From a virus, in the IMG/VR virus record IMGVR_UViG_3300042465_005830, positions 1-64,000 of that record: a DNA stretch of 64,000 nt; one strand, written 5' to 3'. Under the pieces are notes generated by a model. The model saw only the letters and a list, made by a program, of their open reading frames with translations. It did not search any database and was not told where the DNA came from. The position numbers and the translations under genes were made by a program. Below, one piece after another: positions 4,201 to 51,864 of this stretch. Within the stretch, counting starts at the first letter, position 1. Each line of letters begins with the position of its first letter.

Positions 4201-7200
4201 GACAACTGATAGTACAACAAACGGATCAGTACAGTGGGCAAATAGTGGTAATAATGTCTTCGCATTTATAGGTTCTAACACAAACGTTACTGATAGTGGT
4301 GGAAATTTAGAATTTGCAACAGGAGGAACTACCACAAGAATGATGATAAGCTCGTCAGGTAACGTAGGTATTGGAACAACAACTCCAAATGCAAAACTAG
4401 ATGTAAACGGTAATGCAATCATAACAGGATCACTTACAGTAACAGGAAAAATAACAGCAGAAGAATTCCATACAGAATTTGTATCATCTTCTATTATATA
4501 CCAATCAGGTTCAACAAAATTTGGTGATTCATCAGATGATGTAATGAATGTTACAGGATCAATAAAAGTACAAGGAAGTATAACAGGTTCATTATTTGGA
4601 ACTGCTTCTTATGCTATGTTTGCTCAAACACCAACAGTGGCTGGAGCTACCGGTATTCAAGGTGCTACAGGACCTCAAGGAGCTACAGGAGTAATAGGAG
4701 TAAGCGGTGCAACTGGGGTAATCGGAGTAAGTGGTGCAACTGGTTTAACAGGTCCAACAGGTGTATCAGGAGCAACAGGAGTAATCGGAGTATCAGGTGC
4801 TACTGGTCTTACCGGACCAACAGGGGTAAGCGGAGCAACAGGAGTAGTAGGGCCAACAGGAGTAAGCGGTGCTACCGGTGTAATCGGAGTATCTGGGGCA
4901 ACTGGTTTAACAGGTCCGACTGGAGTAAGCGGGGCAACAGGAGTAGTAGGGCCAACAGGTGTATCTGGGGCTACTGGGGTAATCGGAGTATCAGGTGCAA
5001 CAGGTGTAATAGGTGTTAGTGGTGCTACTGGACCAGTAGGAGTAACAGGTGCAACAGGACCAACCTTATCTATAAATGGAAATACAGATAATAGAGTATT
5101 AACAGCTACAGGAGGTTCAACAGTTGATGGTGAAGCAAATTTAACATTTGACGGAACAACATTAGGTACACCAAATGCTTCAATTGCAAACAATCTTCTA
5201 TTAAACGGAAATCACTACATTAGGCAAATAGCCCTACCATCACCAAGTGCAAATGCAGGTGGCGGTAGATGGTTTGTAAGATTATACCAAACCTCACAAG
5301 GAGCTTGTTTTATGGGAGGTAGAATTCGAGTAGGAGGTGCCTGGAACTGGGCAGCTATTATGGGAGTTCTTGAAATAGAGTTTGGTGTATATACATCAAA
5401 TAACAGTACCACAATAGATTCAGGACAGACAAGACAATCAGCAGCAGTAGGAGCAGCAAGAAATAGTTTAAGAATAGGAGATATAGAAGTAGTAGACGGA
5501 TGGGTAGGAGTATATGTATGGTCAGAGAATACAAACTCCCCAGTAGTTCTATTTGACGGATACTGCACTCAGACATTAAATTTATCATCTACTTCATGGG
5601 CTTCAAACAGCTTACCTGCCATAAGTAACACAGAAATCATAGGTGATATTTCAGCTACGACTTTTATAGGAGCTTTATCAGGAAATGCTGCAACAGCTAC
5701 CAATGCAGATACAGTAGACTCATTACACGCTGCTTCTTTTATAAGAAGTGATGCAGATGACGTATTTACAGGAAACCTAACTACCGGAGCAGATAACCAT
5801 ATAACATTTGGACCAAACTCAAGTTGGGGATCTTCTCTAAGAATAGGAGGAAATGGCAGAACTGCTACAGGAACTGAAATGGCAAGTATTGTTACAACAG
5901 ATGGTAACATACACCTAGACGCTGCAAACAGCAATAATGGAATATACTTAAACTACTACGCAGGAACAACAGGAACAGGGTTCGGTAACGGAGCATCAGG
6001 AATTGTTGCTTGGATGGGTTCAGATGGAGATCTATGGAAAGGATCATCAGACAATTCAGGAGATAAGTATTGGCATGCAGGAAATGACGGAGCTTCATCA
6101 GGATTAGATGCAGATTTATTAGATGGAAATCATGCAAGTGCTTTCCAATTAGCACTTACAAATCCAGTAACAGGAACAGGAGCAAATGGACGAGTAGCTT
6201 TTTGGACAGGAACAACTTCTCAATCTTCAAATGCGAATTTCTTTTGGGATAACAGTAATGGAAGGTTAGGTATTGGAACAAGCAGCCCTCAAAGACCATT
6301 AGAAGTAATCTCAGACGGTAATAATTTTGTTTCTGTTGGTGTTAATTCAATAGGTGTTGGTCAATTTGCAGGTATTCATTTTGGATATAGAGAATCTAAC
6401 AACTTATATAGAAAATCTGCAATAGTATTTGAAAGAACAGACCTCACAGCAAATAACGCTCAAGGAAAAATACATATACTAAACGGACCTCAAGGAGATG
6501 CAAATAACGCTACCCTTGCAGATGCTAAGTTAACAATTGCAGAAGACGGTAATGTAGGTATTGGAACTACAAGTCCAACTGCTAAATTACACGTTGCAGA
6601 CACAAACGAAATATTTGATAGTTACGGAAACATCAATGTATTTACAACTAATACAGCAGCGGCTGATATAGGGGGATCTATAGCATTAGGAGGAACAAAT
6701 ACAACAACAGGAACTACTCCATATGTTTTTGGAAAAATTCAAGGTATAAAAGAAGGAAGTGCTAGCAGTTGGAATGGAGCTTTAATATTAGGAACAACTA
6801 ATACCAACTCTTCTATTACGGAGAAGATGCGTATTACTTCGGCAGGTAACGTAGGTATTGGAACAAATAACCCAACAAACAAGTTAGATGTAGTTGGCGG
6901 ATTAGCACATTTTCAACAAAACGCATCCGTAGGAGCAGCATTTAGATGGGGTACGTACGGTACAGCTGTATCACCTGACACTATGTTATGTATGAACCAG
7001 CTATGGAATGGTTCAGGTTGGACAATATTGAATAGCAGTTACGGTACAACTTACATGAATCTAGGTTCTGCAGTAAGTTCTCCTGACATAGACTTTGGTA
7101 CGGGAGGAGCTAATACAGCAGGAACTACCAAAATGATTATCAAGAACAACGGTAACGTAGGTATAGGAGAATCTTCCCCTTCTCAAAAACTTCATGTTAG

Positions 7201-11555: not shown

Positions 11556-13106
11556 ATGCCAGATATTAGAATAGTACCCGGAAATGCAATAATGAGCTTT
11601 ACAAGTTCGTTAAACTTTATAGAAAGAATAACACAAGATCCTTCCGGATCCCTAACCCTATACGGTTCAGGATCAACTGGAAGAACAGATTTATTTTCAA
11701 TAGATGGAAATAACGGAAGATTATTCTCAGTATCTGACGATTTATCTGATTCATTATTTTCAGTAAATACCATAGCAGGACTTCCAGTAATAGAAGCTTT
11801 TGCAAATAATAGTGTAAACATTGGACAATACAGTGCACCTCCTATTAGAGTAATAGGATCAAGCGCTTTTATAACAGGTTCACTAGCTGGAGGAGCTGAC
11901 TTTAGTCGCACTAGTCTTGTCTATAACGAAGGTACTAATGCAACAAGGTATTTAGTTTTCGCATCAAATGGCAACGGAACCCCTCAAACATTGTATACAA
12001 ATCTTGGAAACCTAACCTACAACCCATCTTCAAACACGTTAACAGCAGGTACCTTCTCAGGAGCATTAACAGGTAATGCTTCAACAGCGACTGCTCTGAC
12101 TTCAATGAATATATCACAGTTTACAAATAACTCAGGATATACTACTAATACTGGAACAGTAACTTCTGTAGGAGGTACAGGTACAGTAAATGGAATTACA
12201 TTAACAGGAACAGTTTCTACAACAGGAAATTTAACTTTAGGAGGAACATTAGGAAGTATTGCAAATTCACAACTAGTAAATAGTGCAATACAGATAGGTT
12301 CAACTAATATGTCATTAGGAAATGGATATTCTGATTTAACAGGACTAGGAACTGTTAGAGCAGGTGCAGGAACAGCAGGAGCTCCATCTTTTGCATTCAC
12401 ATCAGATACTAATACAGGTATGTATAACATCTCAGCTGATACATTAGGATTCTCAACTGCAGGAACAGCTAGAATGGTTATTGATAGTAGCGGTAGAGTA
12501 GGGGTAAGCACTACATCAATGGTTAGGGATTTCCAAGTTGGAGCATTTAGTGGATCTCCTGAAATATGTATTGGATCAGGAACTGCAGGAAATGGTACTT
12601 TAGCTTTCGGAGATGGAGCTAGTGGTAATGATCCTTGGAGAGGATATGTACAATACCAGCATACAAACGATAGGATGGTTTTCGGTACAGCAAATGCTGG
12701 TTGGTTGAATTTAACAAGTGGAGGAGCTTTGGGACTTAATATAGTACCAACTAACACAGCTGGTAGATTTGAAGCTTCAAATGACATAGTAGCTTATTCA
12801 TCTTCAGATAAGAGATGGAAAAAGAATATTAAAAATATTAATTCTCCTTTAGAAAAATTATCTCAAATTAATGGAGTTGAATTTGATTGGATCGAAGACG
12901 AACCAGTTCATGGAAATAAAGGACATGATATAGGAGTTATTGCTCAAGAAGTTGAACAAGTATTACCGGAAATAGTTCAGACAAGAGAAAGCGGAATGAA
13001 AGCTGTTCAGTATGATAAAATTATACCGCTTCTAGTTGAGTGTATTAAAGACCAGCAAAAACAAATTGACGAATTAAAACAAATTGTAAATGGCATTACC
13101 AGCTAG
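11556..13106 (+). CDS. Tail fibre with S74 intramolecular chaperone domain (516 aa)
   Basis: Residues 1 to about 405 are a Gly/Ser/Thr-rich shaft (NTGMYNIS.DTLGFSTAG turns). From about residue 408 (SSDKRWKKNIKNI) comes a typical Peptidase_S74 chaperone: SPLEKLSQINGVEFDW, then DIGVIAQEVEQVLPEIV, then the helix YDKIIPLLVECIKDQQKQID. In this family the domain trimerises the fibre and then cuts itself off at the Ser of the first motif. The gene overlaps the next one by 17 bases. Confidence 0.9.
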   Translation: MPDIRIVPGNAIMSFTSSLNFIERITQDPSGSLTLYGSGSTGRTDLFSIDGNNGRLFSVSDDLSDSLFSVNTIAGLPVIEAFANNSVNIGQYSAPPIRVIGSSAFITGSLAGGADFSRTSLVYNEGTNATRYLVFASNGNGTPQTLYTNLGNLTYNPSSNTLTAGTFSGALTGNASTATALTSMNISQFTNNSGYTTNTGTVTSVGGTGTVNGITLTGTVSTTGNLTLGGTLGSIANSQLVNSAIQIGSTNMSLGNGYSDLTGLGTVRAGAGTAGAPSFAFTSDTNTGMYNISADTLGFSTAGTARMVIDSSGRVGVSTTSMVRDFQVGAFSGSPEICIGSGTAGNGTLAFGDGASGNDPWRGYVQYQHTNDRMVFGTANAGWLNLTSGGALGLNIVPTNTAGRFEASNDIVAYSSSDKRWKKNIKNINSPLEKLSQINGVEFDWIEDEPVHGNKGHDIGVIAQEVEQVLPEIVQTRESGMKAVQYDKIIPLLVECIKDQQKQIDELKQIVNGITS

Positions 13107-13508: not shown

Positions 13509-14171
13509 ATGATACAGAAAATACAAGCATTTGCAGTAGTAAATAGGGGAACTGCTACAGAAGTAAAAGTAGAGGTACAGAGTAGATTTACTACAAGAGA
13601 CAGAGCAGTAATTTACTACGACCTAAGAGATCCAAACGGAACAACTCCGGCATTTGATTCAAGAACAAATCAATTCGTAACACTCCCTTATGCAATCTTG
13701 TCACGTAACAAAATAGTAGTAACAGGAGAAGACCGTGCATCAGCAATATCAGATGCAAACCTTGCATCAAATATAGTATTTAGAGAGAGAACAGATGTAG
13801 TAAAAGATACAAATACATATAAATATTTTGCAGTTAGAAATAAAATGACTCAAAGAGGACGTAACGGAGGTCGACAAACCGTAGATAAAGGTGCATATAG
13901 GCTGTACGAAAAATCATCAGCAGCAAAAACAGGATTAAATAACTACACTCTTTTAAGTGAATCTCAAGGAGAACCTGTTGATAGAATCCCTATTTACGAC
14001 TTCAAAGGTCGTCTTATTGGATATGAAGATAAGTACTTATCAAGTAATTATGGAGCAGGTATTATAGATATACAGGTAACTATAAGCAACACAGGTGAAA
14101 AAACATATACAGTAGCTTCTAATAGTAGAGGAGATGAATTTTATATTAATTTAATACAACCATATTTATAA
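13509..14171 (+). CDS. Structural protein of unknown function (220 aa)
   Basis: A basic, beta-rich protein (MIQKIQAFAVVNRGTATEV...; RNKMTQRGRNGGRQTVDKG). It has no signal peptide or membrane segment. It lies between fibre genes and sheath genes, so it is probably virion or baseplate related. Its two stop codons (TAATAA, first at 14169-14171) come 22 bases before the first paired core segment of the group I intron-like RNA. A splice from 14165 to 14447 would be in frame with the next gene, but I cannot find the pairing needed to support it. Confidence 0.7.
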   Translation: MIQKIQAFAVVNRGTATEVKVEVQSRFTTRDRAVIYYDLRDPNGTTPAFDSRTNQFVTLPYAILSRNKIVVTGEDRASAISDANLASNIVFRERTDVVKDTNTYKYFAVRNKMTQRGRNGGRQTVDKGAYRLYEKSSAAKTGLNNYTLLSESQGEPVDRIPIYDFKGRLIGYEDKYLSSNYGAGIIDIQVTISNTGEKTYTVASNSRGDEFYINLIQPYL

Positions 14172-14446
14172 TAACAAAACGTCCAGATTAAATCGGGTGA
14201 ATTGCTGGAAAGTCCTTAGAGCCTCAAGTACCAAAGCGTAACAATCTTGAGGATTGGAAAATCAGCAGCCAAGCTTAGGATACATCCTAGGAAGGTTCAG
14301 AGACTACTGGAGAGGTAAAGTCCTCTTAATAACCAGCTAGAGCGCCCGACACTTGTAAGAGTGATGATATAGTCCGAACTTTATGGAAACATAAAGATAA
14401 CAAATTGGGAGTTTCGGCTCTGGATGACCAAATTAAAAACAAATAG
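14172..14446 (+). ncRNA. Group I intron-like RNA, ORF-less, between genes
   Basis: The order of paired segments is that of a group I core. P3 pairs TCGGGT 14193-14198 with GCCCGA 14344-14349. P4 pairs TGCTG 14203-14207 with CAGCA 14263-14267. A P5 extension pairs CCTCAAG 14222-14228 with CTTGAGG 14246-14252. A P6 hairpin lies at 14274-14291. P7 pairs GACTA 14302-14306 with TAGTC 14370-14374, inside R/S-like sequences (TTCAGAGACTA and GATATAGTCCGAAC). P8 is CACTT/GAGTG 14350-14363. P9 is a perfect 7-bp hairpin with a GAAA loop, 14379-14396. No ORF is inside. The splice sites are not resolved and the outer ends given here are approximate. Both flanking ORFs look complete, so the RNA may lie in a 5' leader. 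Confidence 0.85.
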
Positions 14447-14449
14447 ATT

Positions 14450-14788
14450 ATGACAAATTACACTTGGACTGTAGGTCCATTCGATTGCATCTTAAACGAA
14501 GATGACATGCAAAAAGTAGTAACAACAGTACACTGGAGATATAGAGGTACTGATGAAAATGGAACATCTGCAGAGACTTACGGAGCACAATCTGTAGGAG
14601 CTCCTGACCCGGAAAACTTTACTCCTTTCTTAGAAATTTCTCAAGAACAAGCAGAAGGGTGGTTAGAAGCAGTAATGGATATGGATGCTATAAAAGCAAA
14701 CATTGATTCTCAAATCAACTTAATAAACAATCCAGTAACAGCAACTTTAGCTGCTCCTTGGAATACACCAGTAACAGGTAGTTTGTAA
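14450..14788 (+). CDS. Tail-region protein, MTNYTWTV family (112 aa)
   Basis: The start MTNYTWTVGPFDCIL, the block VVTTVHWRYRGTDENG, and the later PDPENFTPFLEISQEQAEGW resemble a small protein found in the structural regions of many marine T4-like phages, whose function is not established. This match supports the ATG at 14450 as the true start and so an intergenic position for the intron-like RNA before it. Confidence 0.75.
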   Translation: MTNYTWTVGPFDCILNEDDMQKVVTTVHWRYRGTDENGTSAETYGAQSVGAPDPENFTPFLEISQEQAEGWLEAVMDMDAIKANIDSQINLINNPVTATLAAPWNTPVTGSL

Positions 14789-15258: not shown

Positions 15259-17382
15259 ATGGCAGAATCAATTATCTCTCCAGGAGTATTTACAAGAGAA
15301 AATGACCTTTCTTTTATACAACCAGCACCGGTAGCGGTAGGAGCAGCATTTATTGGACCAACAGTTAAAGGGCCTGTAGAAATGCCTACAGTAGTAACTT
15401 CTTATAATGATTATGTAAGAAAGTTCGGAGTAACTTTCGCCTCAGGTTCAGACAAATTCGAATATTTAACTTCATTAGCCGTTAAGAATTACTTCTCTCA
15501 AGGAGGTAATACAGCCTTAATCACTAGAGTCGTAGACCACATTGGCCCTGATTACTCAGAAGCACAAAGTACAAACATTGCTTCTAACAAAGTAACAGGA
15601 GTAAATAGAGCAACTGGATCAGGAACTTTAACAAATGACATTGCAGTCAATCAAGAGTTTAAAGTACAGTACGGAACAGCAGCTTATAGATTTATTCCAG
15701 CAGGTACCCCACTTCCAGCAGATAGTGGAACAGGTAATGTATACTTCTTCCAATCAGGTTCAACAATTGCAGCAACAGTAACTAGCTTAGCAGCAGAAAT
15801 TAACAATGCAATCCCAGGAGTATTACAAGCAACAGGATCAGGAGCAAATTTACTTTTAAGCGGATCAGTAGCTGGTACTTTAAGAAATGGAATTACATTC
15901 TTTACAGGATCTATTACAGACTCTACCGTATCATCAAGCTTATTCACAATAGCAGGAGGTACAGACGCAGCAGCTTCTTCTTTCCCATTCTCAATTAATA
16001 CAATAGGTAAAGGAGCTATTTACAACAACTCTCCTCTAGCAACAGATGCAGGAGCTCAAAACTCTGACGGATCTTTAGTATCAGGTTCAGAAGATAACTT
16101 AAGATGGGAAATCACAAATGTAAATAACTCTAGAGGTACTTTTACATTATCAATAAGAAGAGGAGACGATAGTACAAATACTAAAGTAATCTTAGAAACG
16201 TTTAACAACCTTTCATTAGATCCAGCTTCAGATGATTATATCGAGAAAAGAATCGGTAGTCAATATACAACAATTGGTACAGACGGAAGTTCAACATTTT
16301 TAAGACTAGTAGGAGATTATCCAAATAGATCAAACTTTATTAGAGTAAGTGCAGTAAATTTACCTACAATTAACTACCTAGGAAACGACGGAGTATCAGT
16401 TAATGCAGATGCAGCAGGACTTTCTTACTCAGCATCTTTACCGCAAGCAGTTTCTGGAGCATTTCATAGTGCAGGAGGTACAATTATAGCAGGAGCTAAC
16501 TTCTTTAAAAACATAGACGCTCAAACACAGGGATTAATAGCAGGAGATTATACAGATGCAATTGCATTATTAGAGAATAGAGATGATTATCAATTCAATG
16601 TAATAACAGCACCAGGAGTAACTACAGCAGATCACTCAACAGTAACAGACGCACTTATCTCTTTAGCAGAAAATAGAGGAGATTGTATTGCAGTAGTAGA
16701 CTTAGTAGGATATGAATCTACACTTTCTCAAGTAACAGATGAAGCAGCAGTATTAAATAGTTCTTACGCAGCATCTTACTGGCCTTGGTTACAAACTAAA
16801 TCAGCTACAGGTAAGAATGAATGGATACCAGCTTCAGTTGTAATACCAGGAGTTTATACATTCACAGATGCAGCTTCAGCACCATGGTTTGCACCAGCAG
16901 GACTTGTAAGAGGAGGTATTCCAGGAGTAATTCAAGCACAAAGAAGATTAACAAAAGGAGAAAGAGATACTTTATACTCAGGAAAAGTAAATCCAATTGC
17001 TTCTTTCCCAGGAACAGGTATATCAGTATTCGGACAAAAAACATTACAAACAAAAGCTTCAGCTTTAGATAGAGTAAACGTTAGACGTTTGTTAATAGAA
17101 CTTAAGAAGTTCATTGGTGACCAAGCTAAAAACTTAGTATTCGAACAAAATACTATTGCAACAAGAAATAAATTCTTAGCGACGGTTAATCCTTACTTAG
17201 AATCAGTAGTACAAAGACAAGGTCTTTATGCATACAGAGTAGTAATGGACGAATCTAACAACTCAGCAGATGTAGTTGATAGAAATCAATTAGTAGGACA
17301 AATCTACATTCAACCAGCTAAAACAATTGAATTCGTAGTATTAGACTTCACAATTGAACCAACAGGAGCAACGTTTGTATAA
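15259..17382 (+). CDS. Contractile tail sheath protein (gp18-like, 707 aa)
   Basis: The N-terminus (ISPGVFTRENDLSFI....PVAVGAAFIGPTVKGP) is the standard sheath start, which links neighbouring subunits. The C-terminal domain (ALDRVNVRRLLIELKKFI, then NPYLESVVQRQGLYAYRV, NQLVGQIYIQPAKTIEFVVL) matches the conserved sheath core. Length fits T4 gp18 (659). The middle, about residues 110-300, is variable beta-rich sequence expected on the outer face. It is followed by the tube gene, as usual. This defines the phage as a myovirus. Confidence 0.95.
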   Translation: MAESIISPGVFTRENDLSFIQPAPVAVGAAFIGPTVKGPVEMPTVVTSYNDYVRKFGVTFASGSDKFEYLTSLAVKNYFSQGGNTALITRVVDHIGPDYSEAQSTNIASNKVTGVNRATGSGTLTNDIAVNQEFKVQYGTAAYRFIPAGTPLPADSGTGNVYFFQSGSTIAATVTSLAAEINNAIPGVLQATGSGANLLLSGSVAGTLRNGITFFTGSITDSTVSSSLFTIAGGTDAAASSFPFSINTIGKGAIYNNSPLATDAGAQNSDGSLVSGSEDNLRWEITNVNNSRGTFTLSIRRGDDSTNTKVILETFNNLSLDPASDDYIEKRIGSQYTTIGTDGSSTFLRLVGDYPNRSNFIRVSAVNLPTINYLGNDGVSVNADAAGLSYSASLPQAVSGAFHSAGGTIIAGANFFKNIDAQTQGLIAGDYTDAIALLENRDDYQFNVITAPGVTTADHSTVTDALISLAENRGDCIAVVDLVGYESTLSQVTDEAAVLNSSYAASYWPWLQTKSATGKNEWIPASVVIPGVYTFTDAASAPWFAPAGLVRGGIPGVIQAQRRLTKGERDTLYSGKVNPIASFPGTGISVFGQKTLQTKASALDRVNVRRLLIELKKFIGDQAKNLVFEQNTIATRNKFLATVNPYLESVVQRQGLYAYRVVMDESNNSADVVDRNQLVGQIYIQPAKTIEFVVLDFTIEPTGATFV

Positions 17383-46852: not shown

Positions 46853-46938
46853 AATCGGTTGGTGTAATCGGGAATGAATACCGACAGAGGGTAACACCGC
46901 TTCTAAGCGGGATGAGGGTTCGAATCCCTCACCGATTC
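46853..46938 (+). tRNA. tRNA-like element 1 (anticodon unclear)
   Basis: Acceptor AATCGGT pairs fully with ACCGATT, and the T arm is perfect (GAGGG-TTCGAAT-CCCTC). The centre is odd: stem CCGC/GCGG closes a 6-base loop TTCTAA and the D arm is not regular. It may be a degenerate or specially folded tRNA (TCT Arg-like). Confidence 0.5.
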
Positions 46939-46943
46939 CAAAC

Positions 46944-47040
46944 AGTCAGGAGACCATTGGTTGGTGGCACCTCCCCAAGGTTTAGTTGAAATATACTATT
47001 TATGGCAAAGCTGGAGCAGGTTCGAATCCTGTCCTGACTA
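46944..47040 (+). tRNA. tRNA-like element 2 (anticodon unclear)
   Basis: Acceptor AGTCAGG/CCTGACT and T arm GCAGG-TTCGAAT-CCTGT are clear. The 97-base length and loop TCCCCAA, without U33, are not standard. A CCC (Gly-like) reading is possible. Confidence 0.5.
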
Positions 47041-47081
47041 CAAAATTAAACTACTGTTCTTTGAAATAAAAATTATAAATT

Positions 47082-47393
47082 ATGGAACAAATTTTAGCAT
47101 TTGTTTTAGGGGTTGGTATAGCTCTCCTTGCATGGGGGGTTGTGGTAGCGTTTAGAACAGCAAGCAAAGTAGCAAAGCAAGAAAAAGAGTTAACTGAAAT
47201 ACAGAACTGGATTTCTAGAAACGATGAATTAGTAAATCGTAGAATTGATCAGGAAGTTGATCGAGTAAACAAACTACACTCAGACTGTATTTCCTATACA
47301 GACTCCAGAGTAGACAAATTAGAACAAAAACTTACGTCAATTAACAATGATGGATGTGAGCCAGTTAAGAAAAAAAAATTAATAAACGGATAA
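47082..47393 (+). CDS. Membrane-anchored coiled-coil protein (103 aa)
   Basis: One N-terminal membrane helix (residues 3-23, ILAFVLGVGIALLAWGVVVA) and then a long helix with heptads (KQEKELTEIQNWISRNDELV, RVDKLEQKLTSIN). It lies inside the RNA gene array with no clear promoter before it. Its function is unknown; a spanin-like or envelope role cannot be excluded. Confidence 0.65.
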   Translation: MEQILAFVLGVGIALLAWGVVVAFRTASKVAKQEKELTEIQNWISRNDELVNRRIDQEVDRVNKLHSDCISYTDSRVDKLEQKLTSINNDGCEPVKKKKLING

Positions 47394-47413
47394 ATTAATC
47401 CAAAGAACAGTAG

Positions 47414-47444
47414 TTGTTTTATAAAATAAAAGTTCGTATATTTA
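47414..47444 (+). promoter_or_regulatory. Promoter, TTG-N20-TATATTTA (tandem copy 1)
   Basis: TTG 47414-47416, 20-base spacer, TATATTTA 47437-47444. Confidence 0.6.
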
Positions 47445-47483
47445 TAATATATAAAAACACAAAGAAAAAAAATTAAAATATAG

Positions 47484-47514
47484 TTGGACTGGAATGGAAA
47501 AGTTCATATATTTA
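47484..47514 (+). promoter_or_regulatory. Promoter, TTG-N20-TATATTTA (tandem copy 2)
   Basis: TTG 47484-47486, 20-base spacer, TATATTTA 47507-47514; 20 bases before a 47-residue ORF. The two promoters are 70 bases apart. Confidence 0.6.
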
Positions 47515-47533
47515 TATATAGAAAGCAAATAAA

Positions 47534-47677
47534 ATGAAAGCAATTCAAAACATACATCAACAACTTAGCACAGCGACAAGAGCATTGAATACGTGGTCGG
47601 ATTCGTTATGTGGGGATGTCATTTTAGGCTTTGCTGGATATAATAACGAACCGAAACAAGGAGGTACCGGGGTATGA
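47534..47677 (+). CDS. Small protein of unknown function (47 aa)
   Basis: The ORF has its own double promoter and its own terminator, which supports expression. The sequence (HQQLSTATRALNTWSDSLCG, ending GGTGV) shows no known motif. Strong expression of a small protein from a single-gene unit would fit a host take-over role, but that is only inference. Confidence 0.5.
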   Translation: MKAIQNIHQQLSTATRALNTWSDSLCGDVILGFAGYNNEPKQGGTGV

Positions 47678-47714
47678 TATGATATAGTATAAAATACATA
47701 TTATAAGTAAGGTA

Positions 47715-47743
47715 CCCGGATCAAAAAAAGATTCGGGTTTTTT
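47715..47743 (+). terminator. Rho-independent terminator
   Basis: Stem CCCGGATC 47715-47722 with GATTCGGG 47730-47737 (one G-U), an A7 loop and a T run. It isolates the 47-residue gene from the tRNA array. Confidence 0.85.
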
Positions 47744-47755
47744 ATTAAAAAAAAG

Positions 47756-47786
47756 TTGCTAGAAAGAAAAAAAAATCGTATCTTTA
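47756..47786 (+). promoter_or_regulatory. Promoter of main tRNA array, TTG-N20-TATCTTTA
   Basis: TTG 47756-47758 (GTTGCTAGAAAG), 20-base spacer, TATCTTTA 47779-47786 and then GGTA. The same GTTGCTAGAAAGAAA string recurs at 50582. Confidence 0.7.
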
Positions 47787-47836
47787 GGTACAGAAATAAA
47801 GAATAAGAGTTCATTGACATATTGGATAAAGCATAG

Positions 47837-47920
47837 GGAAGGCATCCGGCTGGATCAGGAGCCACTCTTGAAAAGTGGTAGCAGGTAATACTGTTGTGGG
47901 TTCGAGTCCCACGTCTTCCT
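47837..47920 (+). tRNA. tRNA-Ser(TGA)
   Basis: Acceptor GGAAGGC/GTCTTCC, anticodon stem CCACT/AGTGG with loop CTTGAAA, a long variable arm and T arm GTGGG-TTCGAGT-CCCAC. Followed by CA, not CCA. Confidence 0.92.
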
Positions 47921-47926
47921 CAATAT

Positions 47927-47998
47927 TGGCTTATAGTGTAACGGTTAGCACAAAACACTTTGACTGTTTTAGTCTAGGTTCGAATCCTAGTAAGCCAA
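47927..47998 (+). tRNA. tRNA-Gln(TTG)
   Basis: Acceptor TGGCTTA/TAAGCCA, anticodon loop CTTTGAC on stem AAACA/TGTTT, T arm CTAGG-TTCGAAT-CCTAG. Confidence 0.92.
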
Positions 47999-48000
47999 CA

Positions 48001-48213
48001 AATAATTGTAAGTAATGAAAGCCTATCCCAACACTTGATCAGTAAGTAGGACGGTTAGTAAAGAAAGCATTATCAGTAAGTAGTGGAGAAATCCATATGG
48101 AGAAAACGATGCAAGACATGAGTACAGGGAATCAGCCCGATGGCTTTGCTTACGGAAATTACAGTAGTTTTGAGATGGGCGAATTCTACTTTAAAAAAAT
48201 AATCCCTTCACCA
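48001..48213 (+). other. Spacer in tRNA array
   Basis: I see no tRNA here. The string ATCAGTAAGTAG occurs twice, near 48039 and 48070. An ORF from 48097 runs on into tRNA-Pro and is not believed. Confidence 0.4.
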
Positions 48214-48289
48214 CTGGTAGTAGAGGAGTCCGGTTTATCTCGCTGGCCTTGGACGCTAGAGCACGCAGGTTCGAATCCTGCCTACCAGA
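48214..48289 (+). tRNA. tRNA-Pro(TGG)
   Basis: Acceptor CTGGTAG/CTACCAG, anticodon stem CTGGC/GCTAG with loop CTTGGAC, T arm GCAGG-TTCGAAT-CCTGC. Followed by CG, an exception in the array. Confidence 0.9.
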
Positions 48290-48297
48290 CGAGAAGA

Positions 48298-48360
48298 GAC
48301 TGTTACTAATTCATAGAAGACCACGCGAGTAAGTCCTCGAAGCGTAGAATTAGATTTGCC
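48298..48360 (+). repeat. Repeated hairpin spacer, copy 1
   Basis: GACTGTTACTAATTCATAGA at the start and GAAGCGTAGAATTAGATTTG at the end flank a variable middle. CTAATTC 48306-48312 pairs with GAATTAG 48347-48353. The second copy is at 48439. The last bases overlap the 5' end of tRNA-Lys. Confidence 0.8.
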
Positions 48361-48430
48361 TTCGAAGCTCATGTGGACGGGCACCGGGCTTTTAACTCGG
48401 GGGTAGCTGGTTCGAGGCCAGCCGGGGGTA
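48358..48430 (+). tRNA. tRNA-Lys(TTT)
   Basis: Acceptor GCCTTCG/CGGGGGT with several G-U pairs, D arm GCTC/GGGC, anticodon loop CTTTTAA on CCGGG/CTCGG, T arm GCTGG-TTCGAGG-CCAGC. Confidence 0.85.
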
Positions 48431-48438
48431 CAAAAGAA

Positions 48439-48494
48439 GACTGTTACTAATTCATAGAAGGGCTTTTAGACCGAAGCGTAGAATTAGATTTGCC
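48439..48494 (+). repeat. Repeated hairpin spacer, copy 2
   Basis: Same ends as copy 1 with a shorter, different middle (GGCTTTTAGACC). It joins tRNA-Lys to tRNA-Val and overlaps the 5' end of the latter by 3 bases. Confidence 0.8.
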
Positions 48495-48562
48495 TCGTTG
48501 GCGTAATGGTAGCGTATTTGTTTTACATGCAAAGGGCGATAGTTCGATTCTATCACGAGGTA
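48492..48562 (+). tRNA. tRNA-Val(TAC)
   Basis: Acceptor GCCTCGT/ACGAGGT, anticodon loop TTTACAT on TTTGT/GCAAA, T arm GATAG-TTCGATT-CTATC. Confidence 0.92.
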
Positions 48563-48661
48563 CAAAATTCTGGGTAGCAAGTAAAATACCGGCAAGTATT
48601 TTCAAGACTATATGGAGTCTATTATGAGTTAGTAATTTGCCGATGAAAGCTTGTTATAGTT
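48563..48661 (+). other. Structured spacer in tRNA array
   Basis: Two clean hairpins: AAAATAC/GTATTTT with loop CGGCAA, and AGACT/AGTCT. No tRNA or ORF seen. Confidence 0.45.
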
Positions 48662-48733
48662 TCGTTCTTGGTAGATTGGTGACTACGCTGCCCGTGGAGG
48701 GTGGAGAAGCAGGTTCGATTCCTGTAGAATGAT
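48662..48733 (+). tRNA. tRNA with unusual anticodon loop (CGTGGAG)
   Basis: Acceptor TCGTTCT/AGAATGA, D arm GTAG/CTAC and T arm GCAGG-TTCGATT-CCTGT are regular. The anticodon stem CTGCC/GGTGG closes loop CGTGGAG, which has G at position 33; TGG (Pro) would be the formal reading, GTG (His) is one base off. Confidence 0.7.
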
Positions 48734-48739
48734 CAAATT

Positions 48740-48822
48740 GGGATGCTTCAGTCACTGGTGTGATAAGCGGTCTGTAAAATCGTTGCTGTAAGAAGCGTGT
48801 GGTTCGATTCCACAGTATCCCA
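48740..48822 (+). tRNA. tRNA-Tyr(GTA)
   Basis: Acceptor GGGATGC/GTATCCC, anticodon loop CTGTAAA, a long variable arm as usual for bacterial Tyr, T arm TGTGG-TTCGATT-CCACA. Confidence 0.9.
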
Positions 48823-48827
48823 CAATT

Positions 48828-48900
48828 GGACCTTTTGTATAGCTGGTGCGTACGCTAGTCTGAAGAACTAGAGGAACAGGTTCGATTCCTGTAGGGTCCA
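48828..48900 (+). tRNA. tRNA-Phe(GAA)
   Basis: Acceptor GGACCTT/AGGGTCC, anticodon loop CTGAAGA on CTAGT/ACTAG, T arm ACAGG-TTCGATT-CCTGT. Confidence 0.92.
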
Positions 48901-48905
48901 CAACC

Positions 48906-48977
48906 GGGTTTGTCGTATAAAGGTTATTACGGATGACTGTTAATCATCTTATGGAGGTTCGATTCCTCCCAGGCCCG
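48906..48977 (+). tRNA. tRNA-Asn(GTT)
   Basis: Acceptor GGGTTTG/CAGGCCC, anticodon loop CTGTTAA on GATGA/TCATC, T arm GGAGG-TTCGATT-CCTCC, discriminator G. Confidence 0.92.
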
Positions 48978-48986
48978 CAATTAAAT

Positions 48987-49130
48987 GCTCGTATAACAGG
49001 TAGTGTGGTAGCTCCCCAACCTGAAGTGGGATAACGTGACGGTCAATCGTAAAAGCTCAAGGTACGTAACAAGTAGCAGTTGGTTGGAGTAAGTGACTTA
49101 TCGAGGTTGGTTCGATTCCAGCTATGAGCA
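48987..49130 (+). tRNA. tRNA-like element 3, 144 bases long
   Basis: Acceptor GCTCGTA/TATGAGC and T arm GTTGG-TTCGATT-CCAGC are clear, but about 75 bases more than normal lie between. A hairpin CAGGT/ACCTG near the 5' end carries CTCCCCAA in its loop. A shorter start at GCTCAAG (near 49055) would give 76 bases but pairs less well. Confidence 0.45.
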
Positions 49131-49137
49131 CAAAAAT

Positions 49138-49211
49138 AGGTAATTAGCTCAATTGGTTAGAGCACTCGCCTGATACGTGAGAGGTTATAGGTTCGATTCC
49201 TATATTACCTA
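49138..49211 (+). tRNA. tRNA-Ile(GAT)
   Basis: Acceptor AGGTAAT/ATTACCT, D arm GCTC/GAGC, anticodon loop CTGATAC on CTCGC/GTGAG, T arm ATAGG-TTCGATT-CCTAT. Confidence 0.95.
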
Positions 49212-49216
49212 CAAAG

Positions 49217-49299
49217 GGAAAGTAAATCAACTAGGAGTTGAGACCGCTTGCTAAGCGTATCGTGCCTTCGGGCATGGGGTTCGATACCTCTGCTTTCCT
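49217..49299 (+). tRNA. tRNA-Ser(GCT)
   Basis: Acceptor GGAAAGT/GCTTTCC, D stem TCAA/TTGA, anticodon loop TTGCTAA with a short CGC/GCG stem, variable arm TGCC-TTCG-GGCA. Confidence 0.85.
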
Positions 49300-49430
49300 C
49301 AAAAAAACCTCCTCACCGTCCTCACAACGCATCTAAGGAATGCAGGAGAAGGAAGTACGAACGGGGCCCCGTGGTAAGACACTTTAAAATCAGATAGTAC
49401 AGCGATAGGGTAAGAGGTTCCCTATCAACT
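49300..49430 (+). other. Spacer with possible degenerate tRNA-Leu
   Basis: A perfect 7-bp hairpin GATAGGG/CCCTATC lies at about 49413-49435. Just before it, GTGGTAAGACACTTTAAAAT recalls a tRNA-Leu(TAA) D and anticodon region, but no stems form. Confidence 0.35.
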
Positions 49431-49499
49431 ACCGACTTGATCTAGGATCGAGAATATCTCATAAGTATTCTCAGACAAGAGCGTAACTTGTAGTCGGTA
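49431..49499 (+). tRNA. tRNA-Met(CAT), non-standard T-loop
   Basis: Acceptor ACCGACT/AGTCGGT, D stem GATC/GATC, anticodon loop CTCATAA, T stem ACAAG/CTTGT with loop AGCGTAA in place of TTCGAAT. CAT may also be a lysidine-modified Ile tRNA. Confidence 0.75.
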
Positions 49500-49505
49500 C
49501 AATAT

Positions 49506-49579
49506 GGTGATTGTAGCTGAATTGGTAAAGCGTCTGATTGTGGTTCAGGAGATTGTGGGTTCGAGTCCCATCTTTCACA
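49506..49579 (+). tRNA. tRNA-His(GTG)
   Basis: Extra G before the acceptor GTGATTG/CTTTCAC (two T-T mismatches), anticodon loop TTGTGGT on TCTGA/TCAGG, T arm GTGGG-TTCGAGT-CCCAT. Confidence 0.88.
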
Positions 49580-49586
49580 CAAACAT

Positions 49587-49666
49587 ATCCCTGTGGTGAA
49601 AATGGTAAACACACCAGGCTTAAAACTTGGCGCTCAGGCTTGCTGGTTCGACTCCAGTCAGGGGTA
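49587..49666 (+). tRNA. tRNA-Leu(TAA)
   Basis: Acceptor ATCCCTG/CAGGGGT, anticodon loop CTTAAAA on CCAGG/CTTGG, variable arm, T arm GCTGG-TTCGACT-CCAGT. Confidence 0.9.
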
Positions 49667-49742
49667 CAAAGAGAGAGATGTAGGACTAATTGCCTACCCT
49701 GTTGCATAGCAGAAAGTAGCTTAAATAAAGCCTCTCTTATTT

Positions 49743-49814
49743 GGTCTTATAGTTTAATTGGAAAAACTTATCGCTACGAACGATAGAACGTAGGTTCGAC
49801 TCCTACTAAGACCT
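49743..49814 (+). tRNA. tRNA-Arg(ACG)
   Basis: Acceptor GGTCTTA/TAAGACC, anticodon loop CTACGAA on TATCG/CGATA, T arm GTAGG-TTCGACT-CCTAC. Position A34 would need TadA to make inosine. Confidence 0.92.
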
Positions 49815-49819
49815 CAACT

Positions 49820-49891
49820 GCCCGTATAGTTTAATCGGAAGAACTAAACGCTTCTAACGTTTCAGTCCTGGTTCAAGTCCAGGTATGGGTT
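49820..49891 (+). tRNA. tRNA-Arg(TCT)
   Basis: Acceptor GCCCGTA/TATGGGT, anticodon loop CTTCTAA on AAACG/CGTTT, T arm CCTGG-TTCAAGT-CCAGG. Confidence 0.92.
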
Positions 49892-49963
49892 CAAAAAAAT
49901 CGTCCCTCATAAGGGTTAAGTAGATGAGGCTAATCTAGGTAGGTTAAGCGATACCCTACAAAT

Positions 49964-50034
49964 GCGTTCCACAGACAAGGTGTCGGTCAGGTCTCCAAAA
50001 CCTCGACGGCTGGGTTCGATTCCTAGGGTTCGCG
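49964..50034 (+). tRNA. tRNA-Trp(CCA)
   Basis: Anticodon loop CTCCAAA on AGGT/ACCT, T arm CTGGG-TTCGATT-CCTAG, acceptor GCGTTCC/GGTTCGC with two T-T mismatches, discriminator G. Confidence 0.82.
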
Positions 50035-50066
50035 CAAATATATTGTTTCATTAAAAAAAGTAAATC

Positions 50067-50573
50067 ATGAGTAAGTATCAAAAAGCACTAGTAGTAGATG
50101 CCAGCTTTATCGCAAGATCAGTTATAAGTACAGAAAGAGCTTTCGTGATTTCTTATAAAGGTAATGCTGAAGTAATAGCTGAACATCCAGAAACATTTAA
50201 TCTGTATAACCCAGAATTAACAATTTATAAACCTTCTATTATTAGAGTATTTACATATGTAAAACATAATATTCAAAAAGTAGCTCTAACAAGAGAGAAT
50301 ATTTATAGAAGAGATAATTACGAATGTGTTTACTGCGGATGTTCAAATCAAAGAACACTAACACTTGACCATGTTATACCTCAATCAAAAGGAGGAAAAG
50401 ATGCTTGGGATAATTTAGTAACAGCCTGCAGACCATGTAATCATGAGAAAGCAGATTTAACATTAGAGGAATACGGTAAGGAAATTCCAGAACCAAAAAG
50501 ACCTCACTATTTAATGTTAATGAGAACTATGACACACATACCAAAGGAATGGGAAACTTTTTTATTTTTTTAG
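50067..50573 (+). CDS. HNH homing endonuclease-like protein (168 aa)
   Basis: The C-terminal half is an HNH nuclease of the Cys4 type: NYECVYCGCSNQ, then LTLDHVIPQSKGGKDAWDNL, then TACRPCNHEKADLT, giving two CxxC pairs and the DH...N...H catalytic set. The N-terminal about 75 residues are a separate domain (ALVVDASFIARSVISTERAF). It lies inside the tRNA array, a common home for free-standing homing nucleases, and may move or protect this array. The next promoter starts 10 bases after its stop. Confidence 0.88.
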   Translation: MSKYQKALVVDASFIARSVISTERAFVISYKGNAEVIAEHPETFNLYNPELTIYKPSIIRVFTYVKHNIQKVALTRENIYRRDNYECVYCGCSNQRTLTLDHVIPQSKGGKDAWDNLVTACRPCNHEKADLTLEEYGKEIPEPKRPHYLMLMRTMTHIPKEWETFLFF

Positions 50574-50582
50574 TAAAAAAAG

Positions 50583-50613
50583 TTGCTAGAAAGAAATAAA
50601 GTTCATATCTTTA
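50583..50613 (+). promoter_or_regulatory. Promoter of second tRNA block, TTG-N20-TATCTTTA
   Basis: TTG 50583-50585, 20-base spacer, TATCTTTA 50606-50613, then AGTATAA. It shares GTTGCTAGAAAGAAA with the promoter at 47756, as if copied. Confidence 0.7.
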
Positions 50614-50700
50614 AGTATAAGAAAGAAGATAAAACATCTACTACGTAACGCACGATCGACGACACGTACTGTCTGGCAGGTCAGGCTAGATGTTTAAATT

Positions 50701-50771
50701 GGTCGGTTGGCCGAATGGTTAGGCGCAGGATTGCAAACTCTGTAACGTTGGTTCGATTCCAACACCGACCT
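50701..50771 (+). tRNA. tRNA-Cys(GCA)
   Basis: Acceptor GGTCGGT/ACCGACC, anticodon loop TTGCAAA, T arm GTTGG-TTCGATT-CCAAC. Confidence 0.9.
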
Positions 50772-50866
50772 CATTGAAGGTTCGACCCTCTACCAAATGT
50801 GTTACACCCACAGATGGACAACGAGAGGGAGCTACCGATTGATAAGTGGCCGCACATGCGGCAAAT

Positions 50867-50940
50867 GCCCGAGTGGTGGAATTGGCAGACACGCTAGACT
50901 TAGGATCTAGATATTGAGGGTTCGAGTCCCTCCTTGGGTA
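50867..50940 (+). tRNA. tRNA-Leu(TAG)
   Basis: Acceptor GCCCGAG/CTTGGGT, anticodon loop CTTAGGA on CTAGA/TCTAG, T arm GAGGG-TTCGAGT-CCCTC; the variable region is short for Leu. Confidence 0.88.
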
Positions 50941-50945
50941 CAAAA

Positions 50946-51015
50946 TTAGAGTTAGCTTATAAAGGTTAAAGCAGCAGGGGCTAACCTGCAGAACGGATTC
51001 ATAGCCCGGCTCTAA
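50946..51015 (+). ncRNA. tRNA-like element 4
   Basis: Ends TTAGAG/CTCTAA pair and a hairpin GCAGG/CCTGC closes a 6-base loop GGCTAA. There is no standard T-loop. Size and place suggest a decayed tRNA (perhaps Ser GCT) or a novel small RNA. Confidence 0.4.
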
Positions 51016-51024
51016 TTAAAATAT

Positions 51025-51129
51025 AAACTATTATGCGTAAAAAGTTAGATAGATGTGCAGATAAGATTGGGAAGCCGAGTTTACGGTGAAAGGCTGCCAC
51101 TGATGACTCCCAATAGCCTCTAATAGTTT
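51025..51129 (+). ncRNA. Candidate structured RNA in tRNA array
   Basis: A perfect 9-bp outer stem (AAACTATTA 51025-51033 with TAATAGTTT 51121-51129) encloses a perfect 7-bp stem (ATTGGGA 51066-51072 with TCCCAAT 51108-51114) and a third AGCC/GGCT. No tRNA features. Confidence 0.5.
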
Positions 51130-51135
51130 AAATTT

Positions 51136-51209
51136 GCTTCTGACGCACAAATGGTGGTGCACTGGATTTGTAACCCAGAATAGAGTCGGTTCGATCCCGT
51201 CCAGAAGCT
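51136..51209 (+). tRNA. tRNA-Thr(TGT)
   Basis: Acceptor GCTTCTG/CAGAAGC, anticodon loop TTTGTAA, T arm with loop TTCGATC. Confidence 0.88.
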
Positions 51210-51214
51210 CAACT

Positions 51215-51286
51215 GCGGCTATCGTATAATGGTCATTACTTTAGACTTCCAATCTAAAGATGAGAGTTCGATTCTCTCTAGCCGCT
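51215..51286 (+). tRNA. tRNA-Gly(TCC)
   Basis: Acceptor GCGGCTA/TAGCCGC, anticodon loop CTTCCAA on TTAGA/TCTAA, T loop TTCGATT. Confidence 0.93.
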
Positions 51287-51292
51287 CAAATT

Positions 51293-51364
51293 GCTGCGTT
51301 AGTGAAGGGGTAAACACGTATCACTTTCTATGATAAGGCACGGGTTCGAATCCCGTACGCAGTA
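51293..51364 (+). tRNA. tRNA-Glu(TTC)
   Basis: Acceptor GCTGCGT/ACGCAGT, anticodon loop CTTTCTA on TATCA/TGATA, T arm ACGGG-TTCGAAT-CCCGT. Confidence 0.92.
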
Positions 51365-51439
51365 CAGAGCTCTTTATTCGTATTAGGAGGAATAGCTTAA
51401 TCAGCTTCTAGATTTGACGACTCGGAAAGACGAGTAACT

Positions 51440-51511
51440 GGGGCTATAGTGAAATTGGCATCACGATAGATTTGCATTCTGTTATTCCGGGTTCGAATCC
51501 CGGTAGCTCCA
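51440..51511 (+). tRNA. tRNA-Ala(TGC)
   Basis: Acceptor GGGGCTA/TAGCTCC, anticodon loop TTTGCAT on ATAGA/TCTGT, T arm CCGGG-TTCGAAT-CCCGG. Confidence 0.93.
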
Positions 51512-51565
51512 CTATACAGCTGTATAACAGCTGGTGGTTGACAGCTCGGAACAGACGGGCATTTT

Positions 51566-51638
51566 GGTCTGGAGGTGTTATTGGTAACACGTCGCACTGT
51601 CACTGCGAAGATTGCGGGTTCGATCCCCGTGCAGACCG
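51566..51638 (+). tRNA. tRNA-Asp(GTC)
   Basis: Acceptor GGTCTGG/GCAGACC (last pair mismatched), anticodon loop CTGTCAC on TCGCA/TGCGA, T arm GCGGG-TTCGATC-CCCGT, discriminator G. Confidence 0.9.
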
Positions 51639-51647
51639 CTTATAAAT

Positions 51648-51717
51648 TGCGTTAAGGTGTAAAGGTTGCATCTAGGTCTCATAAGCCTGGGGGGTGGTTC
51701 GAGTCCACGCTACGCTA
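51648..51717 (+). tRNA. tRNA-Met(CAT), possible initiator
   Basis: Anticodon loop CTCATAA on TAGGT/GCCTG and T loop TTCGAGT. The acceptor TGCGTTA/CTACGCT leaves position 1-72 unpaired, a mark of initiator tRNAs, but other pairs are weak too. Confidence 0.75.
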
Positions 51718-51723
51718 CAAATT

Positions 51724-51797
51724 GTCCTTTTAGCTCAGCCGGTTAGAGCAGCTCGCTCATAACGAGAAGGTCACAGGTTCGAATCCTGTATAGGACA
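51724..51797 (+). tRNA. tRNA-Met(CAT) or Ile(CAT)
   Basis: Acceptor GTCCTTT/ATAGGAC, D arm GCTC/GAGC, anticodon loop CTCATAA on CTCG/CGAG, T arm ACAGG-TTCGAAT-CCTGT. Third CAT tRNA of the array. Confidence 0.9.
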
Positions 51798-51864
51798 CTA
51801 AAGTTTATCCAATATGAGAGCAATTCCCTCATCTCCAATGTAGTACTTGACTAGTTCAAGTATT

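Follow-up and report, generated by a model that had tools for sequence, protein, structure and literature searches.

Permuted intron-exon (PIE) constructs have been made from the Anabaena and Tetrahymena group I introns (Puttaraju and Been 1992, as cited in PMC6545197), and a natural permuted precursor is found with the coral mitochondrial group I intron ND5-717, whose back-splicing yields a circular exon-containing RNA (PMC6545197). The lariat-capping (GIR1) ribozyme of amoebae and a slime mould forms a 3-nt lariat, contains a P3/P15 pseudoknot and is tied to homing endonuclease mRNA (PMC4167309), while permuted group II introns are natural self-splicing ribozymes of bacterial hosts, located outside open reading frames (ORFs), that yield RNA circles (PMC8637638). 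The introduction of a 2023 paper names the hammerhead, twister, 5S rRNA and group II RNAs as natural permutations and does not include group I (PMC10085705); as far as that introduction and PMC6545197 go, natural permutation of group I is known only through the coral mitochondrial gene. The present analysis concerns an element between two late genes of the IMG/VR virus record IMGVR_UViG_3300042465_005830, located in the 64,000-nucleotide stretch that was analysed (positions 1 to 64,000 of the record, hereafter the window). Judged by comparison with its relatives, this locus is probably a natural circularly permuted group I ribozyme, that is, a natural PIE element, the chemistry proposed below included. 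At the level of sequence comparison its fold, the intact core, a permuted P1, both splice sites in reversed order with the 3' site first, and a helix joining them (helix A) can be regarded as established.

A search with cmscan against Rfam revealed a match to Intron_gpI (RF00028) at positions 14132-14396 of the + strand; it scores 96.9 bits (E 9.1e-24), where the gathering score is 50, and no other group I match occurs in the window or elsewhere in the 76,413-base record. The group II domains that define circularly permuted group II introns are absent, with no group II match to Rfam in the window. Pairing is present for P3, P4, P5/5a, P6/6a, P7, P7.1, P7.2, P8 and P9; across 18 related sequences 98.4% of the cells are paired and 106 two-sided changes occur, a result reached by none of 500 shuffles. 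The presence of a group I ribozyme, which the original prediction had proposed from the pairing of P3 to P9, is confirmed at this locus, well beyond chance. Its core is presumably of the IA type, like that of T4 td, as assigned from the P7.1/P7.2 extension. Two features of RF00028 introns are lacking: there is no P1 with a 5' splice-site U.G pair upstream of the core, the equivalent pairing being downstream, and no gene is interrupted whose exons could be joined, since the element, free of ORFs as predicted, sits outside any gene between two complete ORFs.

The guide (internal guide sequence) GUCCAG stands directly before P3 and pairs perfectly with CUGGAU, ending in a U.G pair at U14425, and this target lies beyond P9 and beyond the normal 3' splice site. 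The order is thus guide, core, 3' splice site, an 18-nt 'exon' and 5' splice site, and the element is therefore circularly permuted. In the window alone the match of guide and target could be luck, but this is rejected because the same order, with the guide before the core and the target after P9, recurs in 22 loci. These were gathered via core patterns in IMG/VR, protein neighbours and GenBank phages, and include a second copy in L003 that is nearly identical to the element of the window. The original prediction had failed to find a P1 helix; none indeed exists upstream, where a scan of up to 600 nt for a conventional P1 and 5' splice site gave the chance level only, but P1 is present downstream, and the element therefore reads as a permuted intron, not as an ordinary one or one in a leader. 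It had also considered a splice from 14165 to 14447 that would fuse the flanking ORFs. Such an ordinary cis intron, or one using a distant 5' splice site upstream, is very improbable: the upstream gene does contain, at 14013-14018, a UUGGAU capable of weak pairing with the guide, but the 14165 to 14447 splice has no guide pairing, the ORFs are complete, the downstream gene is present without any intron in Flavobacterium phage immuto (L010) and in L002, and across the family targets are no more frequent upstream than chance predicts (1 of 19 GUCC-class members has its own 5-mer within 150 nt and 6 of 19 within 600 nt).

Guide and target vary together among the members, as GUCCA/UGGAU, GUCCU/AGGAU, GUCCG/CGGAU and GUCCC/GGGAU, and six-pair examples are GUCCAG/CUGGAU, GUCCUC/GAGGAU and GUCCGA/UCGGAU. 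The fifth pair of P1 is Watson-Crick in 19/19 GUCC-class members, against 6.7 expected on swapping targets, and none of 100,000 swaps equalled this. Members with a single GGAT in the 110 nt after omega-G, the base in which the 3' splice site ends, are of particular value, because the target there was not picked for fit; in these the fifth pair fits in 14/14 cases, against 4.4 expected. The own 5-mer is found within 100 nt downstream in all 19 GUCC-class members (7.5 expected). For counting pairs, an alignment of 18 sequences (A4) was used in which only the last 8 nt of the exon were kept; there the fifth pair is AU in 8 sequences, UA in 6, GC in 3 and CG in 1, with no mismatches, while pairs 1-4 are invariant (G.U, U-A, C-G, C-G) and the splice-site U.G never changes. 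Because the swapping test ignores kinship, changes were also counted on a core tree built without these columns: the fifth pair changes at least 8 times, each time on both sides, and one such coordinated change separates the sisters L010 and L027. A trans-splicing ribozyme, for which the local GGAU would be a decoy and a different RNA would carry the true target, could in principle do with guide, core and 3' splice site; it is made highly improbable by the joint change of guide and local target in every lineage, a change that a target in trans would not call for.

The same core patterns also picked up ordinary introns (L172, L167, L188, L139 and L149), and these keep their P1 upstream; the method itself therefore does not create permuted structures. 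In L172 the P1 strands ACUGGAU and GUCCAGU are 13 nt apart, and P2 is missing as in the permuted family. This P2-less ordinary intron (L172, 9210-9444) may show what the ancestor looked like before it was permuted. The core pattern was also run on bacterial genomes, where it matched ordinary tRNA introns (L237, L239) and, apparently by chance, two sites with no intron, and nothing else.

The 3' splice site has the form AACAnnnUG or AACAnnnnUG after P9 in every GUCC-class member; its UG is invariant in all 22 members, and ordinary-form IA introns from the same searches (L031, L046, L091) share this 3' end. Helix A joins the bases around omega-G to those just after the splice-site U, with a family score of 128.5 compared with 99.4 (sd 4.7, maximum 113 of 500) for swapped partners, and with variants such as AAGUGA/UCACUU, GUAAUG/CAUUAC, AAAUGC/GCAUUU and AAUGGU/ACCAUU. 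Both splice sites would therefore be held together, in reversed order. As in PIE-type group I elements, the 3' splice site with its omega-G comes ahead of the 5' splice site and both are intact. The limits of the element, originally drawn at 14172-14446, are corrected to the guide start at 14181 and at least U14425 plus helix A (14431). The spacing from omega-G to U is 17-20 nt in the Flavobacterium-type members and the GCC subclass and 41-79 nt in marine members, and hairpin B opens most of the short exons. A second subclass (L011, L013, L014, L018, L019, L024, L026) has the guide GCCUGUG or GCCC and the target GGU or GGGU; its P1 is weaker, at about 3-4 pairs, and several of its members repeat the guide string GCCUGUG in the exon hairpin.

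In the proposed mechanism, GTP bound in P7 would attack after U14425, so that the downstream mRNA gains a new 5' G, and the freed U would then attack after omega-G 14407, releasing an 18-nt circle. The upstream mRNA would be left with the ribozyme at its 3' end, and the net effect would be the separation of two tail-region cistrons of a late mRNA. The likely benefit, which is less certain, comes from mRNA processing and from protection of the 3' end more than from the circle: circles differ in sequence and length between members, whereas the cutting parts are constant, and selection is therefore more likely to act on the cut. In all 22 loci, 6-78 nt separate the stop codon of the upstream ORF from the guide that follows it, and it may be speculated that terminating ribosomes gate folding.

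Several points weigh against a permuted ribozyme acting in this manner. Covariation at the sixth P1 pair is not significant, and P1 is therefore described as 5 bp with an occasional sixth; in the GCC subclass (L011, L013, L014) it comprises only about 3-4 pairs. An 18-nt circle is very small, no consistent P10 between the exon start and the bases before the guide was seen by eye, and a P9.0 (CCG/CGG) that seemed possible in the window and in immuto was dropped since it fails in L015, L021 and L027. In nearly all members omega-G takes part in helix A, from which it must be released before it can serve as the 3' splice site. This sequestration would suit a folded non-cutting RNA, a relic of a permuted intron that is inert or serves as a structured 3' UTR or leader. 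Such a relic is improbable, since P7, P4, the guide G, the splice-site U and omega-G never vary, in contrast to the peripheral helices with their compensatory changes, and decay would strike these active parts as much as the rest.

The pairing of omega-G in helix A could block free use of the 3' splice site and thus also suits a one-step ribozyme of the lariat-capping type, in which the 2'-OH of U14425 would attack after omega-G 14407 without GTP and give the downstream RNA a 2',5' lariat cap; in a variant, only hydrolysis or GTP cleavage after U would occur, with no circle. The topology is alike, with the cleavage site 3' of the core and omega-G upstream of a G.U-paired U. A G.U-paired U is a feature of lariat-capping ribozymes. 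The short distance from U to the ATG in the window and the marine members (25-31 nt) also favours this reading. Such a reaction is nevertheless rather unlikely, as the loop would be 17-79 nt instead of the 3 nt of lariat-capping ribozymes (PMC4167309), no P15 is seen in alignment A4, where the P3/P15 pseudoknot would be the hallmark, and in immuto an intrinsic terminator directly follows the element, leaving no mRNA to cap. In immuto the ribozyme is therefore a 3' element of the gene before it. A role in controlling the downstream start, as originally suggested, may still apply but is not general.

Features of the permuted group I element and its surroundings (window positions unless a locus is named)
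Feature	Position	Strand	Remarks
Upstream ORF, 220 aa, tail region	13509-14171	+	stop codon ends 9 nt before guide
Shared C-terminal domain	window 13794-14168; L022 C-terminus of 4802-6271; L023 7773-8306; L050 5035-6711
Guide GUCCAG	14181-14186	+	directly before P3; guide G pairs with splice-site U14425
P3 5' strand UCGGGUG	14193-14199	+	pairs with 14343-14349
P4-P5-P5a-P6-P6a domain	14203-14295	+	P6a: two-sided changes in 6/7 pairs
P7 5' strand GACUA, G-binding site helix	14302-14306	+	pairs with 14370-14374; invariant
P7.1/P7.2, IA-type extension	14307-14336	+	family alignment
P3 3' strand and P8	14343-14363	+	cmscan and family alignment
P7 3' strand UAGUC	14370-14374	+	cmscan and family alignment
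P9 hairpin CUUUAUGGAAACAUAAAG	14379-14396	+	cmscan and family alignment
3' splice site AACAAAUUG, ending in omega-G 14407	14399-14407	+	form shared with ordinary IA introns
Helix A 5' strand UUGG	14405-14408	+	pairs with CCAA 14428-14431
Predicted circular exon GGAGUUUCGGCUCUGGAU, 18 nt	14408-14425	+	predicted limits, from omega-G and U; hairpin B 14409-14411 with 14418-14420
Permuted P1 target CUGGAU	14420-14425	+	after P9; predicted 5' splice site follows U14425
Helix A 3' strand CCAA	14428-14431	+	family covariation
Downstream ORF, 112 aa, DUF7936 / phrog_7802	14450-14788	+	E 4e-26 (DUF7936); start 25 nt after U14425

The neighbours in the window are tail genes, with the sheath at 15259 and a tail fibre containing Peptidase_S74 at 11556, and among the loci examined for surroundings the copies are located in tail-gene regions. 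The downstream start belongs, as had been recognised, to a known small-protein family, and the genes after marine copies start MSIVLRVNKGSALTYDEMD. L003/L004 carries two copies and close relatives differ in their presence: the first, whose site precedes the MSTQF gene (11210), is missing from the window, and the second is missing from immuto and L002. The cultured phage immuto carries one member, and the class is therefore directly testable. Its annotated CDS immuto26A_226 (QQO91905.1; L010 2965-3099, MW353175.1 145086-145220) lies inside the ribozyme core and is probably no gene; the lysozyme annotation of L010 4026-4442 looks doubtful, the product being similar, by eye, to the DUF7936 protein encoded after the element in the window. 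ARAGORN found an array of 23 tRNA genes at 46853-51798 of the window, covering most amino acids.

A C-terminal domain (YYFAVxN ... FYxxIVxPYL) is common to upstream proteins with unlike N-termini and stands just before the ribozyme. Homologues alike in the N-terminus only (L001, L007, L008) lack both this domain and the ribozyme, which suggests that the two form a cassette. Used as an unbiased marker, the domain gave only two matches, both already known and both with the ribozyme, and a tblastn search in isolated phages gave no match; the cassette idea therefore stays a lead. On balance, these elements appear to be members of a widespread natural class in phage tail-gene regions that would cut late polycistronic mRNA with GTP and form tiny circles or, alternatively, lariat caps with a long loop; each may be inherited as one cassette together with the preceding C-terminal domain.

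The open literature that was searched describes no permuted group I element from a phage; on this provisional basis the class, which is recurrent, is apparently undescribed. If so, evolution would have found the trick used in the laboratory manufacture of circular RNA, the class would add an RNA-only route for cutting phage mRNA between genes, and it could supply new natural circularising ribozymes.

Compared with known systems, the element is closest in its core, the IA-type P7.1/P7.2, the 5' splice-site G.U and the AACAnnnUG-like 3' splice site to ordinary phage group IA introns (T4 td-like; L172, L046, L031), from which it differs in its reversed splice-site order, the absence of P2 and its location outside genes, and in that it would not join two exons. 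With engineered PIE constructs it shares the order of 3' splice site, exon and 5' splice site and the expected circle; unlike them it is natural, has its break in the loop of P1 so that the core from P3 to P9 is contiguous, and has a tiny exon and its own flanking helix A. The lariat-capping ribozyme likewise descends from group I and acts on RNA lying 3' of its core, but differs in its 3-nt lariat, the P3/P15 pseudoknot and the link to homing endonuclease mRNA. Permuted group II introns are also natural, permuted and outside ORFs, but have an unrelated group II fold and bacterial hosts. Coral ND5-717 is, like the phage element, a natural permuted group I precursor with a circular exon-containing RNA (predicted here); in coral, however, the permuted order results from the circular mitochondrial DNA, most of the genome lies in P8, and splicing assembles a real gene, ND5.
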